NCBI GenBank assembly: GCA_028688575.1
Contig: JAQTXW010000010.1
Span: forward strand, 1 to 53,276
Origin: Methylotenera sp.
GTDB lineage: Bacteria > Pseudomonadota > Gammaproteobacteria > Burkholderiales > Methylophilaceae
Length of the DNA: 53,276 nucleotides
Direction of reading: 5' to 3'
Below, piece by piece: positions 2,901-14,600 of the stretch (within the stretch, counting starts at the first letter, position 1; each line of letters begins with the position of its first letter). Both the position numbers and the translations under genes were made by a program. The notes below the pieces were generated by a model that worked only from the letters and a program-made list of their open reading frames with translations, was not told the origin of the DNA and ran no database searches.

Positions 2901-2929
2901 TATTTCGTATAATGTATAGCAAATCAAGT
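2901..2929 (+). other. dif-like attachment site with intact XerC arm and centre, degenerate XerD arm
   Basis: TATTTCGTATAA-TGTATA-GCAAATCAAGT; identical to the 4420-4437 copy through the central region, then only 5/11 matches to the XerD arm. Confidence 0.8.
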
Positions 2930-2998
2930 AATGGCGCGGTTTCCAGCCATTTTTACAGTTAAAAATTTGAGTTGTAGATTTTCTAAAATCAGAAAAAA

Positions 2999-3007
2999 TT
3001 ATCCACA
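2999..3007 (+). promoter_or_regulatory. DnaA-box consensus sequence TTATCCACA
   Basis: Exact match to TTATNCACA inside the putative IMEX; could be chance. Confidence 0.3.
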
Positions 3008-3063
3008 GGCTCGCTAAGCCTTATCTAGCCTAGCTTTTACGGGGTTTCAGCCCATTTTCCGAA

Positions 3064-3675
3064 TTACTGTGCCTCCCATTCTAAAGCGTCGTTTGCCGCT
3101 TCTGCAATACCTGTAAATTTACGGTATTTTTCAGGCTTAGCCGAGCTGAAGGTTTTTTCTTGCAGACTAGCAACGCCTGCACCTCTTAACATTAAGTTTC
3201 GATGCCCTTGGGCGCCCAATCGCGCGGTCGCGCGACTTGGGGCATCGCTAGCGGACGTCTCAATCTCAACGGTAGCAAGGTTTTGCTTTTTACTGGCTTT
3301 TGCCTCTGCACGCTCTTTCAACCACTGCTTAGCCATCCATAAATAATTGCTGAGGTAAAGTAACTGGTAAGGCTCAAAAGCACGTCCAGCAGGGCTGTAT
3401 AGTGCGCCTTTGTAAATGCTCCATCCTTCCCACTGTTTGCCAACCAATGCATAGCCACCAAACAAGCGCATGAGCCGAAATGCTGAATAAGGGATAGTGC
3501 TGGATCCATTCTCCCAATTTCTAACTGTCTTAGTCGTGACGTTGAGCATATCAGCTGCCTGTTTGATGTCTAAACCAGCACGTTTGCGGCAGGTGTGGAA
3601 TACCTCTGGGTCGTTCCACCTGCGCTTAGTTTTCTGGGTTCGCATAACAGTTTGGCCGGTGGATAAATCCACCAT
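3064..3675 (-). CDS. VC1465/XafT-family (DUF3653, XRE-like HTH) putative Xer recombination activation factor
   Basis: KQAADMLNVTTKTVRNWENGSSTIPYSAFRLMRLFGGYALVGKQWEGWSIYKGALYSPAGRAFEPYQLLYLSNYLWMAKQW matches the HTH-'WExG..IPY.AF.L.R...G'-'W.GW......L.SP.G..F.P..L..LS' layout of this phage family. Start may be 3645 (MRTQKT). Confidence 0.8.
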   Translation of the reverse strand: MVDLSTGQTVMRTQKTKRRWNDPEVFHTCRKRAGLDIKQAADMLNVTTKTVRNWENGSSTIPYSAFRLMRLFGGYALVGKQWEGWSIYKGALYSPAGRAFEPYQLLYLSNYLWMAKQWLKERAEAKASKKQNLATVEIETSASDAPSRATARLGAQGHRNLMLRGAGVASLQEKTFSSAKPEKYRKFTGIAEAANDALEWEAQ

Positions 3676-3824
3676 GATTTGGTGAGAGGGTGCTTAGACG
3701 CGCCAAAGATTTTGCCTTGTCGACAAAGGGACTGCACGTAGCCAACGCCCAGCCCCATTTGTTCCGCAAACTGTCTTAATGGCAAGCCTTTTCTTGAGAT
3801 TCCATCGAAGTAAGGTTTAGGCAT
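3570..3824 (-). CDS. Small HTH/excisionase-like protein of the putative IMEX
   Basis: MPKPYFDGISRKGLPLRQFAEQMGLGVGYVQSLCRQGKIFGASKHPLTKSWWIYPP: wHTH excisionase-like pattern; overlaps the XafT-like ORF in another frame. Confidence 0.55.
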   Translation of the reverse strand: MPKPYFDGISRKGLPLRQFAEQMGLGVGYVQSLCRQGKIFGASKHPLTKSWWIYPPAKLLCEPRKLSAGGTTQRYSTPAANVLV

Positions 3825-4161
3825 TTTGCACCTCGACTTCAAAATGAAAGCTTTCTGTACCTGGCGCATTCAGATTGGAAGGGGGCGTGTTAAAAAACTC
3901 TTTTTCCATCTCCACCACATCTGCCAGGAATTGCTGCTGCTCTTTGGCTCGTTCGTTTTCTGACTTGTGTTTATACAGTTGGTCAAAAAATGCATCTATG
4001 AGGCTTTGGAGCGTTTTTTTATCATGTTGGCTATCACCACATTCAACAGCATTTAATTCTGCGTCTATGAGGCTATACAGCAGTTTGATTTGACCTTTGG
4101 TTAAATCAATATTGATGATGCTTGAATCGCATGTATCGGTTGGTTTGTAATCCGTACTCAT
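3817..4161 (-). CDS. Small hypothetical protein of the putative IMEX
   Basis: 114-aa ORF overlapping the start of the next ORF, preceded by CTAGGAGAATGAC (good SD). No family recognised. Confidence 0.55.
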   Translation of the reverse strand: MSTDYKPTDTCDSSIINIDLTKGQIKLLYSLIDAELNAVECGDSQHDKKTLQSLIDAFFDQLYKHKSENERAKEQQQFLADVVEMEKEFFNTPPSNLNAPGTESFHFEVEVQNA

Positions 4162-4250
4162 GTCATTCTCCTAGGGTTGATGTTTTCACAAACAACCTGC
4201 GGAAAATTTTTCCCACTACGCTTCAAAAAAAACCTTGAATTTTAAAATTA

Positions 4251-4283
4251 AAAAAGGGGCCCCCGCGTGCGGGGTATTGTTTT
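4251..4283. terminator. GC-rich hairpin with flanking A/T tracts, possible bidirectional terminator at the IMEX right end
   Basis: CCCCGC-GT-GCGGGG (4261-4274), preceded by an A-rich/GGGGC run and followed by TATTGTTTTTAT. Confidence 0.5.
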
Positions 4284-4420
4284 TATATTTTAAAATCTAG
4301 GTTAAAAATTCAACTGCAAGCTACAAACTACACGGTTATTTCAAATTGACCACTTTAGACTTTACGTACCAGTTACACGTAAAGTATCGCTCAAAAGTGA
4401 GCAAAAATAGCCAAGTTCGT

Positions 4421-4448
4421 ATTTCGTATAATGTATATTATGTAAAAT
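4421..4448 (+). other. dif: dif site (XerC/XerD chromosome dimer resolution site)
   Basis: ATTTCGTATAA-TGTATA-TTATGTAAAAT. Central hexamer and 10/11 of the XerD arm match E. coli dif (GGTGCGCATAA-TGTATA-TTATGTTAAAT); XerC arm 7/11. Confidence 0.93.
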
Positions 4449-7294: not shown

Positions 7295-8113
7295 TTACTG
7301 CAGAAAATCAGCCCAGTTTATTGTGTGCGTATTAGTTGCAAAAAAAGTGGGGTTTAATAGCGATTGTTTACGATTGTAACCGAGTGAGTTTGTGGTTTCA
7401 TCCAGAATCTCGCCACCGGCTTCTCGCAAAATGCAGTGTGCGGCAGCCGTATCCCACTCGTATGTAGGCCCAATTCTAGGATATACATCCGCCTTACCCT
7501 CAGCCACTAAGCAAATCTTAAGAGAGCTGCCCATGCTAATTAGTTCAGGAATAGCACCTGTAAGCTGGTGAAGCCTGTTTAAAAACTGCTGATATTTTTG
7601 ATCAGTATGTGAACGACTGCCCGCAACAACAAGCTTGCCAATATCAAACGGCCTTACAGAAATTTCTGATGCTGCTCCCTGACTTACCTGCTTAAAAGCC
7701 CCCTGCCCTTTGGTGCCATAGTACAGCAAGTCACTGGCTGGTGCATAAACCACTCCCAACACTGGCTGATACTGGTCAATCAATGCAATATTCACCGTAA
7801 ACTCACCATTGCGCTTCACAAATTCGCGCGTGCCATCCAGCGGGTCAATCAGCCAGTATTGCTGCCATTGGTTACGCGTTTCAGGCGAGATGCTTTCTGA
7901 TTCCTCAGAAAGAATAGGCACCTCTGGTGTGAGCTCAGATAATCGACTGACAATCAAATGGTGTGCGGCTAAATCAGCCTGAGTCAACGGTGAGTTGTCT
8001 GATTTTCTTTCAATATGAAAATCCGTTTGATATATCTCCATAATTGCCTCTCCCGCAGCTTTGGCAATTTGGATTACATCAGGTAGGTATTTTGAATAAT
8101 CGCAGTTGTTCAT
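7295..8113 (-). CDS. cysQ: 3'(2'),5'-bisphosphate nucleotidase CysQ
   Basis: DNSPLTQADLAAH, ILSEESE, WLIDPLDGTREFVKRNGEFTVNIALI, WDTAAAHCILREAGG. Confidence 0.93.
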   Translation of the reverse strand: MNNCDYSKYLPDVIQIAKAAGEAIMEIYQTDFHIERKSDNSPLTQADLAAHHLIVSRLSELTPEVPILSEESESISPETRNQWQQYWLIDPLDGTREFVKRNGEFTVNIALIDQYQPVLGVVYAPASDLLYYGTKGQGAFKQVSQGAASEISVRPFDIGKLVVAGSRSHTDQKYQQFLNRLHQLTGAIPELISMGSSLKICLVAEGKADVYPRIGPTYEWDTAAAHCILREAGGEILDETTNSLGYNRKQSLLNPTFFATNTHTINWADFLQ

Positions 8114-8119
8114 GTTGTT

Positions 8120-10129
<2,010 letters not shown>

Positions 10130-10140
10130 TCAACCACCTG

Positions 10141-11661
10141 CTAGGAGAATAATCTAAGCGCGCTATCTGAGCCTGGCATAATGCCACGCACCAGCAGTTT
10201 GGCGTGAATCACTTTGAGTTGATGCCTAATCATTTCGATTTGCATATCGCCGAGTGGCCTGTTGTTGTCGTCCACGAGCACTGCATTCAAGCCTATTGCC
10301 ATTTGTTTGGCAGTCTGTACCATTTGATTAAAAGCCTCTGTGCAATGTTTAACATGTGGAATATCCAGCTGAAAGGTAATGCCTTTGACTACACTTGTCC
10401 TGAGCATTTCGTTACTGAATGGGTGCTGATCACGGTTAAACATGGTAAAAGCCGCAGGCGGTTTTGATGTGGGATTTGACTGCAGTAACTTGGTGGCGTA
10501 CTCATCATAAAATTTAAACGTGCCATCTGCGTCCAATCTCATGCCTTGCGCCTCAGCCAGGCCTCTAAGTTTGGTTCCAGTAAACGCGCCGCTCTCACCA
10601 TGCACTAAATGGAACCCCATGGTTTTATCAACATCAATGCAAAATGCATCTAACTCTGTAGCTGTGGCGATTGCATCACCATGACTTTGCCATTCCACAT
10701 GGGCATTGACATCTAAACCTAAAGTTTCAACCGCAAGTTGGAAGCGATTTAATACGCTGCGAGAAACCGCCCCCCCCCTGTCTGCAAGTTGTAAACTGCA
10801 AGCGATACGTGAGACTTTTTGCTCAGCTAAACTAACATCAGAAACAACAGATGCCAGTAGGAGCCATTGTTCGTTTTCATTCAACAGGTGAATATGTAAA
10901 GGCTTGTTGTATTCTTCAAATAAGCCACTGACATGTTTGGCTACTTGTGCGATTGTTTTTTCTGAAGCTAAATATAACAATGCTGTTAAATCCATTTGCG
11001 TATGCAACATTGCAGGTAGGCTATGCATGCTGTCTTCAGTGGAGGTGCCTGTGTTTAGTTTAACATCTGACTCAACACCCCAGACAGCATCAGGATGTGC
11101 GTTGAGGTTGTCTGGCTGATTTAGCTCTTTTGGCTTTGCTGTACGTGTTTGACTGAAGGCTTCATTGAAAATTGATTTAATTTCCTCACTCTGCTGAGTG
11201 TTGATCGGGACAATGTTGCCCTGTTGGGTTTCTAAGGCAACTTCATCCAGCATTTCTGGTGTGGCATCAATGTTGTCAGGCAAAGCGTTATGTTCGTGTT
11301 TAAGCTCATGCTTGTGCTGGTAGTTGACCACATCGGTGAACACCTTGTCCAAATCCTCTTCTGCACGGTTAATTTCTACATCTTGATCCAGCCTTAGAAA
11401 CCTGTCATCGTTAAGACTGTTATCAGTTTCAGTCAACACTTGTGAAGCATTCATTGAGAAGTTATCCTCAATAAAGCCTATATCCTCTTTGGAGTCAGCA
11501 TCTGCAGATGCTGCATCATCTAGTAAAACGTCCCCCTGCACATCAGAAAAGCTACGTTCAACCTGCTGGTTAAATTTTCTTTCCTGCCACCAATTGAACA
11601 CCATCACAGCTAGAATAATGATGGCACCAATGATCATTAGGGCTATTTGCAACTCACTCAT
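10141..11661 (-). CDS. zipA: Cell division protein ZipA (ZipA C-terminal FtsZ-binding domain)
   Basis: N-terminal single TM (LQIALMIIGAIIILAVMVFNWW), long acidic linker, ZipA-like C-terminal domain, position between smc and ligA. Confidence 0.82.
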   Translation of the reverse strand: MSELQIALMIIGAIIILAVMVFNWWQERKFNQQVERSFSDVQGDVLLDDAASADADSKEDIGFIEDNFSMNASQVLTETDNSLNDDRFLRLDQDVEINRAEEDLDKVFTDVVNYQHKHELKHEHNALPDNIDATPEMLDEVALETQQGNIVPINTQQSEEIKSIFNEAFSQTRTAKPKELNQPDNLNAHPDAVWGVESDVKLNTGTSTEDSMHSLPAMLHTQMDLTALLYLASEKTIAQVAKHVSGLFEEYNKPLHIHLLNENEQWLLLASVVSDVSLAEQKVSRIACSLQLADRGGAVSRSVLNRFQLAVETLGLDVNAHVEWQSHGDAIATATELDAFCIDVDKTMGFHLVHGESGAFTGTKLRGLAEAQGMRLDADGTFKFYDEYATKLLQSNPTSKPPAAFTMFNRDQHPFSNEMLRTSVVKGITFQLDIPHVKHCTEAFNQMVQTAKQMAIGLNAVLVDDNNRPLGDMQIEMIRHQLKVIHAKLLVRGIMPGSDSALRLFS

Positions 11662-11690
11662 TTACATTTAACTTTCTTGTTCTGTATGCA

Positions 11691-14600
11691 TCAAGAGATT
11701 GATTCAACCATTCTTACTGCAGCTTCCATATCGACATCTACAATGCGCGACACACCTGACTCCTGCATGGTAACACCAATCAGCTGCTGCGCCATTTCCA
11801 TTGTAATTTTATTATGACTCACATATAAAAACTGAGTTCTTTCTGACATTTTTTTGACCATGGCACAAAAACGCTCTGTGTTACTGTCATCAAGAGGGGC
11901 ATCCACCTCATCCATCAGGCAAAAAGGCGCAGGATTTAACCTAAATAACGCAAATACCAGCGCTAATGCGGTGAGCGCTTTTTCCCCACCCGATAACAAA
12001 TGAATAGTGCTGTTCTTTTTTCCTGGCGGTTGAGCAAATACTTGAATGCCTGTGTCCAGTATTTCTTCACCCAACAACTCTAGCTTAGCCTGGCCACCGC
12101 CAAACAAAGTGGTAAAAAGTTCATTAAAGTGTTTATTTGCTTCGTCAAATGTAAGCTGCAAGCGGCTTCTTGTTTCACGGTCAATCTTGCGGATTGCATC
12201 TTCCAGTGTTTGGCTGGCCTCGGAAAGGTCTTGATGCTGGCTGTCCAAATATTGCTTGCGTGCCTGTTCGTTCGCTAACTCTTCGATTGCGGCAAGATTT
12301 ACGGCGCCTAATGTCTCGATGTTAAATTCCAGCAGCTCTTTTTTGCGTTCTAGCTGGCTGACTTTAATTTCACCACCTAACGCAACCAGACTATTCACTA
12401 ACGCTTGTTCCTGCAAGCTAGAAGATGCCAGCGCCGCCTGGCATTGCTCAAAATGCAGCCTAGCCTCTTGTTCCGCGAGCCTGCCAGCTTCTAATTGATC
12501 GCGCAGCGGGTGTAAAAGCTGCTCTTGCTGCATGCGCGTACGCTCATGTTGTAACAGGCCTTCTTGTGATTCGCTCAAGGTATTGCGTGCATTTGCCAAA
12601 GACTGCTCGCAGGTTTGTTTAACATTCAAGGCGGCTTCAAGGTTAGCCTTTAGCGTTTCCATTTTTGTTGCCGACAAAGTAGTTTTCACGTCATTGCAGC
12701 GCAACTTCAAATTGGTTTTTTCTTCATTTAAAAACTCAACTCTAGATTTTAATTCATTGATTTTATTGTCTATTAATTTTATATTAAAGTGAATCTCCTG
12801 ATGCGCTCGTTCGCTAGATTGTAATTTCGCTCTCAACTCGTTGAGCAGCGCTTCTGCTGCATTTTTGTGCGACTCATTCGCTGATTTTTGTTCTTGCATT
12901 TGCAGTAAATCTGCAGCAAGGTGACTGATCAATCCCTGTTTATGGTCTTTTTCCTCTTGCAGTAATTGTAACTTTTGTTCCGCATGCGCAATATCCGCCT
13001 CTAACTGCGATTTGCGCTGCAAGGCATTCGCTTGTTGCTGCTTGAGTTGCTGCAACGCTAAATCAAGCTGATGTGCTTGCTGCGTCAGGCGTTTCAAATG
13101 GTCCTGCTGCGCATGTTGCTGTTTGCGTAATTCACTAAGTTTTGCATCCAGTTGCAATACTTCCTGCTGCGAGGCTTTAAACGCATCTTTAGTAGTGGGC
13201 AACTGCGCTTCTAAAGCCGCCAGGCGGGCTTGGCGCTCCAATATACCATGCGTGAAAGACTGCGCACCGTAATACGTCACGCTGTAACGCGTATAAATAT
13301 CTCCTTGCTGATTGACTAAACATTCGCCCTCATGCAACTTCAAGCTGGTATTCGCCGGGTCTGTATCGGAATCCAGCAAATAAACCCCCGTAAGCCAGTC
13401 TTGAATAACTGCCGTTAGCCCTGCCTCCATGTGCTCAATTTTTGCGCACAAAGGCTGTAACGCGCTATTTGAGTTTGCGACCAAGCGACCTCTGTCCAGC
13501 CTCTCGGTCAGCGCCAGGGATGCCGCCGCGGGTGGTCGTATGTCAGGCTTGATGCCCTCGTGCGTAATTGCATTGAGTCTGGTGCCTAACACTGCCTCAA
13601 GTGCAGTTTCCCAGCCAGATTGAATCCGTAAAGATTGCCAGATTCGAGGGTTGTGGTGCAGCCCCTGCTGCTTGATCCACATTGAAAGGTTGTTTTGATT
13701 ATCCTCTCGCATGGATTGCTGAATTTTGCTGAGTGAGCTGATTTCCGCTTCCAGTACGTGTAATTCACGCTGCAATAAATGTGCATGTTCACGTGCTGTT
13801 TTTAATGCATGTGCACTGCTGCGCTCATCTTCCAATGTTTGCTTACTCTGCGCTTCTGCCTGCGCGATACTTAACTCGACATCTGATAACTGCAACACTT
13901 TTTCCTGCACAGCATCATCTTTAGGTGTTTGCAACGTGCTTAAATTCTGTTGTAAGCGTTTGATTTGCTCAGTCGTTTCAACTATGGTGCGCGTAATGTG
14001 CGTAATATTGGCGGTTTCCAAGCGCGAGCGTTGCTCAACGTTTAACCAGGCCGCTTGGCTTGCGTTAAAACTAGTGAGAGTGGCCTGATATGCCTGCAAC
14101 TGTGATGCCACCGCCTGCCGCGCACGCTCGATATCAGTCTCTGAATCAGTGAGCTCAGCGTGCGTTTTTGTTAAATTCCTCTGCGTGGCTTTCAGCGTTT
14201 CGTCCACGTCTATCTGCTGCGCATGGTTTTTTTCCAATTGAGTATTAAGCTGCTGTAGCTGTAGCTGCAAACGCTCTCTGGCATCAGCTGTATTTTTAAC
14301 CTGATTTTCCAGATTAGATACCACGGCGTTGGCTTCATAATAGCTAGCCTGAGCTGTGTTGAGCGCTTCAGTTGTCAGGGTGTGCTGTTGCCGAACTGTT
14401 TCAAGTAGGTTTTCACTATGACGCAGGTCAGCCATTTGTGACTCAAGCGCATTAACAAGCTTTTCAACTTGTCGCTGTGCTTTCTCCCAAAGTGCACCAG
14501 CCTCCCGTTTTTTTAACACCCAAACCTGACCTATGGTCAGGTTTAAACTCTCCTGCATACGATGAAACTCTTCTGCAACTGCCGCTTGTGATTGCAAACG

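Follow-up and report, generated by a model that had tools for sequence, protein, structure and literature searches.

A 1.5-kb Xer-exploiting element at the dif site of a Methylotenera genome, probably a replicase-less satellite of filamentous phages

Features of the dif locus

The window analysed here (the whole 53,276-nt stretch of DNA) comes from a genome of the same genus as the Methylotenera records to which it was compared, e.g., M. mobilis 13. It carries a 1519-bp insert whose flanks are the full 28-bp dif site (4421–4448) and a copy of the XerC arm and central region of dif (2902–2918), and whose interior consists of three genes on the minus strand plus some 400 bp of non-coding sequence. 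The features are, in window positions:

2902–2929, plus strand: left junction; XerC arm ATTTCGTATAA (2902–2912) and central TGTATA (2913–2918) as in dif, then GCAAATCAAGT
2999–3007, plus strand: perfect DnaA-box sequence, TTATCCACA, 98 bp inside the left end
3064–3675, minus strand: VC1465/XafT-family Xer activation factor (HTH plus DUF3653), by NF040522, PF12375 and VC1465 alignment
3570–3824, minus strand: ORF2, small winged-HTH protein (SLRxFA..WWIYPPAK), kept in related elements; overlaps both neighbours
3817–4161, minus strand: ORF3, which opens the operon and encodes a small, mostly helical protein; position and motif recur in related elements
4261–4274, plus strand: hairpin CCCCGCGTGCGGGG, rich in GC, within the ORF3–dif leader; a stem in the predicted single-strand fold
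4359–4385, plus strand: hairpin 1, ACTTTACGTaccagttACACGTAAAGT, with CCAGTT in its loop, shared with filamentous phages; candidate origin or packaging hairpin
4389–4402, plus strand: hairpin 2, GCTCAaaagTGAGC, whose pairing is kept while its stem sequence varies between elements and phages
4421–4448, plus strand: right junction, intact dif, the sole copy in the genome

The window holds exactly two copies of the 18-mer TATTTCGTATAATGTATA, at 2901–2918 and 4420–4437, both on the plus strand and 1519 bp apart (the expectation from shuffled sequence, allowing up to 3 mismatches, is 0.03). This agrees with the preliminary description of the locus, which gave these coordinates and this period, a full dif at 4421–4448 with an identical 18-bp copy in the same orientation, and three minus-strand ORFs between them. 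The repeat ends precisely where the 6-bp central region ends, and at 2919–2929 the XerD arm is replaced by GCAAATCAAGT; the left and right sites match at 17 of 17 positions and then at 4 of 11. The full dif sequence, ATTTCGTATAATGTATATTATGTAAAAT, is present once in the 2.25-Mb genome, whose only intact dif this is, and it is composite, the element having supplied the XerC arm and the chromosome the XerD arm.

Relatives do not all have an insert at this place. Genome G014 has a single dif without an element (locus L073) in the same gene order as here, Glk-MsrB-HD-GYP-dif-MsrQ, and its HD-GYP, MsrB and glucokinase are 92.5%, 88% and 87% identical, respectively, to those of this genome; HD-GYP and MsrQ lie about 0.35 kb apart in G014 and about 1.8 kb apart in this genome, and the excess is roughly the length of one element. 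Host XerD (389.5 bits) and XerC (360.5 bits) were both found over cut-off in a search of the genome, and the Pfam/NCBIfam profile search gave no recombinase match among the three ORFs of the element. The element is thus integrated exactly at dif, between a full dif and a dif-like site, in a host that has both XerC and XerD, and it has no integrase of its own. Integration at dif is well supported, and the earlier reading of the locus as a minimal Xer-exploiting element (IMEX) is borne out by the junctions, the empty site and the activator described below. A further XerD-like match in this genome lies in two pieces in a 338-aa frame (G000:C78:16962–17837), scores below the XerC and XerD cut-offs, and is another tyrosine recombinase.

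Genes of the element

The ORF at 3064–3675, previously described as DUF3653/VC1465-like, exceeds the curated cut-offs of both relevant profiles: it scores 108 bits (cut-off 70) against NCBIfam NF040522, "VC1465 family Xer recombination activation factor", and 36.9 bits (cut-off 22.4) against Pfam DUF3653 (PF12375). Compared singly with VC1465 of the TLC-Kn1 record it is 35% identical over 82 aa (E 1e-12 in that one comparison). The activator of TLCphi has been named XafT (PMC9765430).

Judging from its sequence, 3824 is a likelier start for ORF2 than 3869; an ATG at 3824 would overlap the end of ORF3. Its AlphaFold2 model is a winged HTH with pLDDT of about 80 in residues 10–60, and the best PDB fold matches are the phage P2 DNA-binding protein 4lhf, BldC and Pukovnik Xis, with E values of 0.2–0.8 that are not significant, so that a Cox/Xis/BldC-like nature of the modelled protein is suggestive only. 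A search for ORF2 in 369 genomes sampled across the class found it here, and elsewhere gave just two weak partial matches. The model of ORF3 has three helices at low confidence, too poor for a useful fold search, and the Pfam/NCBIfam profile search gave ORF3 no family above cut-off. Both ORF2 and ORF3 recur in related elements with dN/dS values of 0.12–0.43 wherever these could be computed, and by these sequence comparisons they are real genes. For the three element genes together pairwise dN/dS is 0.04–0.47 in all non-saturated pairs, which indicates that the genes are maintained. The same profile searches recognised no replication, Zot or coat gene among the three ORFs, as the preliminary description had stated.

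A family of related elements

Activation-factor matches over cut-off were found in 10 of 52 Methylotenera genomes, most of them at dif, and a wider search for this factor gave 71 loci and six viral contigs. Thirty elements, mostly of Methylotenera and Gallionellaceae and with sequences mostly from metagenome bins, could be delimited at both ends and are 1125–2716 bp long. Their left and right sites agree at positions 5–6 and 9–17 in 30 of 30 cases, and from position 18 on in 3–16 of 30; since left ends were searched for with at most 2–3 mismatches to the dif consensus, their uniformity is partly due to selection, but the drop after position 17 is not. The element described here is therefore one member of a family that reaches down to 1.1 kb, and not an isolated remnant. 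Among known phages and plasmids, DNA matches to the element were limited to dif-like or marginal pieces, and relatives of its activation factor to distant ones from Vibrio and Xanthomonas.

Many of these elements have the gene order ORF3-ORF2-activator when followed outward from dif, and some add a second ORF2-like gene at the end farthest from it. Those of G034, L086 and a few others have extra genes, and in our own reading of their sequences a ribbon-helix-helix-like protein seemingly stands in the place of ORF2. A 332-aa protein encoded in G034 (L061, 11917–12915) is apparently a membrane-anchored coiled coil, with no Pfam match over cut-off and no PADLOC match, and the larger L086 element has an extra 212-aa ORF; none of six cargo or neighbouring proteins was identified by PADLOC as the product of a defence gene.

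G041 contains two different elements in tandem, and L133 also has a tandem pair. An element of G041 and that of G022 are 85.4% identical over 1753 bp, that is, over their full length, coding and non-coding, whereas in the 18 kb around them just one 917-bp stretch of flank could be aligned (68%); this pattern shows that the element moved between species. A copy labelled Latescibacterota (L079) has a flank 88% identical to that of L084 and is probably mis-binned.

Several further observations concern individual members. In G039 (L067, 1429–3678) a transposase-like ORF of 462 aa lies between the activator gene and dif, and this copy is thus disrupted. In G051 (L072, upstream of 5651) and G027 (L074, upstream of 7597, minus strand) the sequence ahead of dif resembles the right end of a mini element, but no element gene or left end was seen; by this resemblance both are probable scars of lost elements. 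In M. mobilis 13 (G003, L060) four large plus-strand genes at 7556–12920, which we take to resemble a Tn7-like transposition set, lie directly beside the activator operon of a mini element; no dif was found in the 18-kb L060 stretch, and Pfam, NCBIfam and PADLOC gave no names for the genes tested. A similar-looking gene lies near the element at G030:C82 (L066, 4400–5092). In Gallionella elements (e.g., L087, L093 and L096) the left end has a short conserved leader, KIMNMAKLGTVS, that is read outward in the direction of the junction, and a motif like AAACYGTWCCG, a candidate protein-binding site by its sequence, recurs near both ends of the elements. A gene completed only in the circular form was sought in all elements without a convincing case: long ORFs cross attP in several Gallionella elements, with a short conserved leader as their first part and a continuation that is not conserved.

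Hairpin DNA shared with filamentous phages

The predicted single-strand fold of the whole non-coding region at 4162–4420 has z = −4.25 relative to shuffles. Within it, positions 4369–4393 are identical at 25 of 25 bases to filamentous phage L166 (found at dif in G012) and at 21 of 21 to filamentous phage L167, and the L079 element has 35 identical bases in common with the former; none of 33 control segments from the window matches those phages over more than 15 bases. Hairpin 1 hardly varies in stem or loop across elements and phages, as one would expect of a site recognised by a protein. In hairpin 2, four of the five pairs show double changes among the elements and phages compared, and the whole twin-hairpin structure has 14 double-change cells, a value reached in none of 500 shuffles. 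Across the 52 Methylotenera genomes the 26-bp palindromic core occurs only in G012, G030, G035 and G039 (3 mismatches), each time within a dif element or phage, and this genome (G000) has a variant 2 bp shorter. In IMG/VR the pattern is found in exactly two contigs, L166 and L167, both of them filamentous phages with Zot and G2P-type replication proteins and dif-like sites. The DnaA-box sequence TTATCCACA lies at element positions 98–100 in L079, L081 and L084 as well (four elements of the group) and occurs once in each of the two phages on the matching side of the att site; on sequence grounds it would act as a DnaA box.

Other phages, assigned like these from metagenome contigs, lie next to elements. 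In L168, a contig with a 17-bp terminal repeat, a mini element that has the activator and ORF3 directly abuts a filamentous phage that looks complete, and this element shares a 127-bp stretch (64%) with the region after Zot; the G034 and L086 elements have 19–20 exact bases in common with an intergenic region of this phage. In the Gallionellales contigs L169 and L170 the element adjoins a phage that encodes replication, Zot and secretin proteins, and element and phage both carry the hairpin TCCGGGT[A/C]CGTATGTAATACCCGGACAA (27 of 28 bases), which in the phage lies just upstream of Rep; the phage version is matched exactly in L091 (28 of 28) and over 20 bp in L097 and 16 bp in L096. About two-thirds of the 30 elements, those of Xanthomonadales included, have no exact match longer than 15 bp to the five phages compared, and for the Xanthomonadales and several Gallionellaceae elements there is no proven helper match. 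A repressor-like phage gene spans the att site in L166 (93–434), L168 (1546–1965) and L169 (7571–7990), so phage integration alters the 3′ end of that gene.

Discussion

The element resembles TLCphi of Vibrio cholerae in its attP, where the XerC arm and central region match dif but a XerD arm is lacking, in having an XafT-family gene last, beside the left dif junction (as in the TLC-Kn1 record), and in its lack of structural genes. The TLCphi attP has a dif1-like XerC arm and central region with a degenerate XerD arm, and is recombined XerD-first without FtsK (PMC4246890); TLCphi also has an autonomous replication module (PMC4246890, PMC4439123), whereas no replication gene was recognised in the three ORFs here, and for this reason we do not file the element as a TLCphi. 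ORF2 and ORF3 are absent from the partial TLC-Kn1 record that was compared, whose VC1466 fragment looks unlike ORF2. Given the same att parts and an XafT-family gene, the same integration route is the natural inference. By analogy, the activation factor would switch host XerD on without FtsK, the XerD-less left half and the right XerC arm would form attP in the circle, and XerCD would recombine attP with dif to integrate the element and, in reverse, to excise it, with ORF2 possibly acting as a directionality factor or repressor.

The element has no coat or Zot genes of its own and shares cis-acting DNA with filamentous phages, as a filamentous-phage satellite would, and this DNA would presumably serve as an origin or packaging signal. 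The ori(+) of CTXphi consists of stem-loops, and RstA nicks an apical loop there, between a G and a T (PMC4439123). The invariant CCAGTT loop of hairpin 1 would fit such a nick site, and the Rep of the phages is of a broadly RstA-like kind; from these two facts we infer helper-driven rolling-circle replication. The G2P/RstA-type nickase of an incoming helper phage would fire the hairpin origin on the satellite, the single strand would, in a further step, be coated and exported with helper proteins, and the circle would re-enter dif in a new cell. The shared hairpins could alternatively be regulatory sites or terminators, not origins. Taken together, we consider it likely that this is a TLC-type IMEX that is a replicase-less satellite of filamentous phages, one that carries its own XerCD activator and borrows phage replication and probably packaging; dependence on a helper would follow from this reading.

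Other small or Xer-mobilised elements offer partial parallels. RS1 of CTXphi is also a small dif-associated filamentous-phage satellite that stacks in tandem with its phage; it encodes its own replication protein RstA, a repressor and an antirepressor, and to our knowledge no Xer activation factor. The VGJphi-type dif-using phages L166/G012 and L167, our candidate helpers, have the same twin hairpin and, across the att site from it, a DnaA box, but are full phage genomes with Zot and a G2P-type replication protein; the central regions of their att sites, TGGGGC and TGTGCC, differ from that of dif, and they would integrate by a different strand-exchange order. Like this element, the pdif modules of Acinetobacter plasmids, GGI and EludIMEX-1 are DNA moved by host XerC/XerD. 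The pdif modules differ in being plasmid-borne cassettes, and we know of no Xer activation factor in them. GGI and EludIMEX-1 are 57 kb and 29.1 kb long, respectively (PMC5357621).

Could the element move without filamentous phages, as a Xer-exploiting circle spread by transformation, vesicles or conjugative plasmids, with hairpins that are general regulatory sites of dif-dwelling elements? In this genome (98% complete, 93 contigs) no filamentous phage Zot or G2P-type Rep was found (other Rep families would escape this search), so the element is at best dormant here, and Zot is clear in only 2 of the 52 genus genomes as against 10 with the activation factor over cut-off; both facts would suit such independence. 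However, the shared DNA is specific to filamentous phages and involves at least two unrelated sequences, and elements adjoin filamentous phages in two cases, so we regard phage-independent mobility as unlikely.

We give still less credence to decay from a larger filamentous prophage or TLC-like satellite into an immobile remnant. The absence of a replication gene, and of a helper from the genome, would be expected of a remnant, and broken relatives do exist (G039 with its transposase ORF, G027 and G051 with right-end-like sequence only), but many species have elements of this size with such ends and gene order, dN/dS lies far below 1, both junctions are intact and an element has passed between species. 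The preliminary description had left the choice between reliance on a helper and decay undecided; shared gene order, purifying selection and the hairpin DNA in common with filamentous phages favour the former. A domesticated module that serves the host, e.g., by tuning chromosome dimer resolution, would suit the location exactly at dif and the encoded XerCD activator, but is very improbable: the elements occur patchily, dif is empty in a near relative of the same synteny, and different elements stack in tandem, all of which fit a parasite better.

Returning to the satellite reading, we found no description of such elements among the open-licence papers on filamentous-phage satellites, and we lean, with some reserve, toward the broader view that they are a widespread, unrecognised class: filamentous-phage satellites of 1–3 kb in which even the replication gene has been lost, which use a XerCD switch in place of an integrase and a helper's hairpin origin in place of a replicase, and whose lineages track different phage replication systems. 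If this is right, a mobile element could get by on an activator for a housekeeping recombinase of its host, a pair of small proteins and an origin that it borrows, and the recurrent unannotated 1–2 kb inserts at dif in these genomes would be explained. The family would also provide natural XafT variants with matched attP sites for dissecting FtsK-independent XerCD switching, and would extend filamentous-phage satellites from Vibrio to common betaproteobacteria of freshwater and groundwater.
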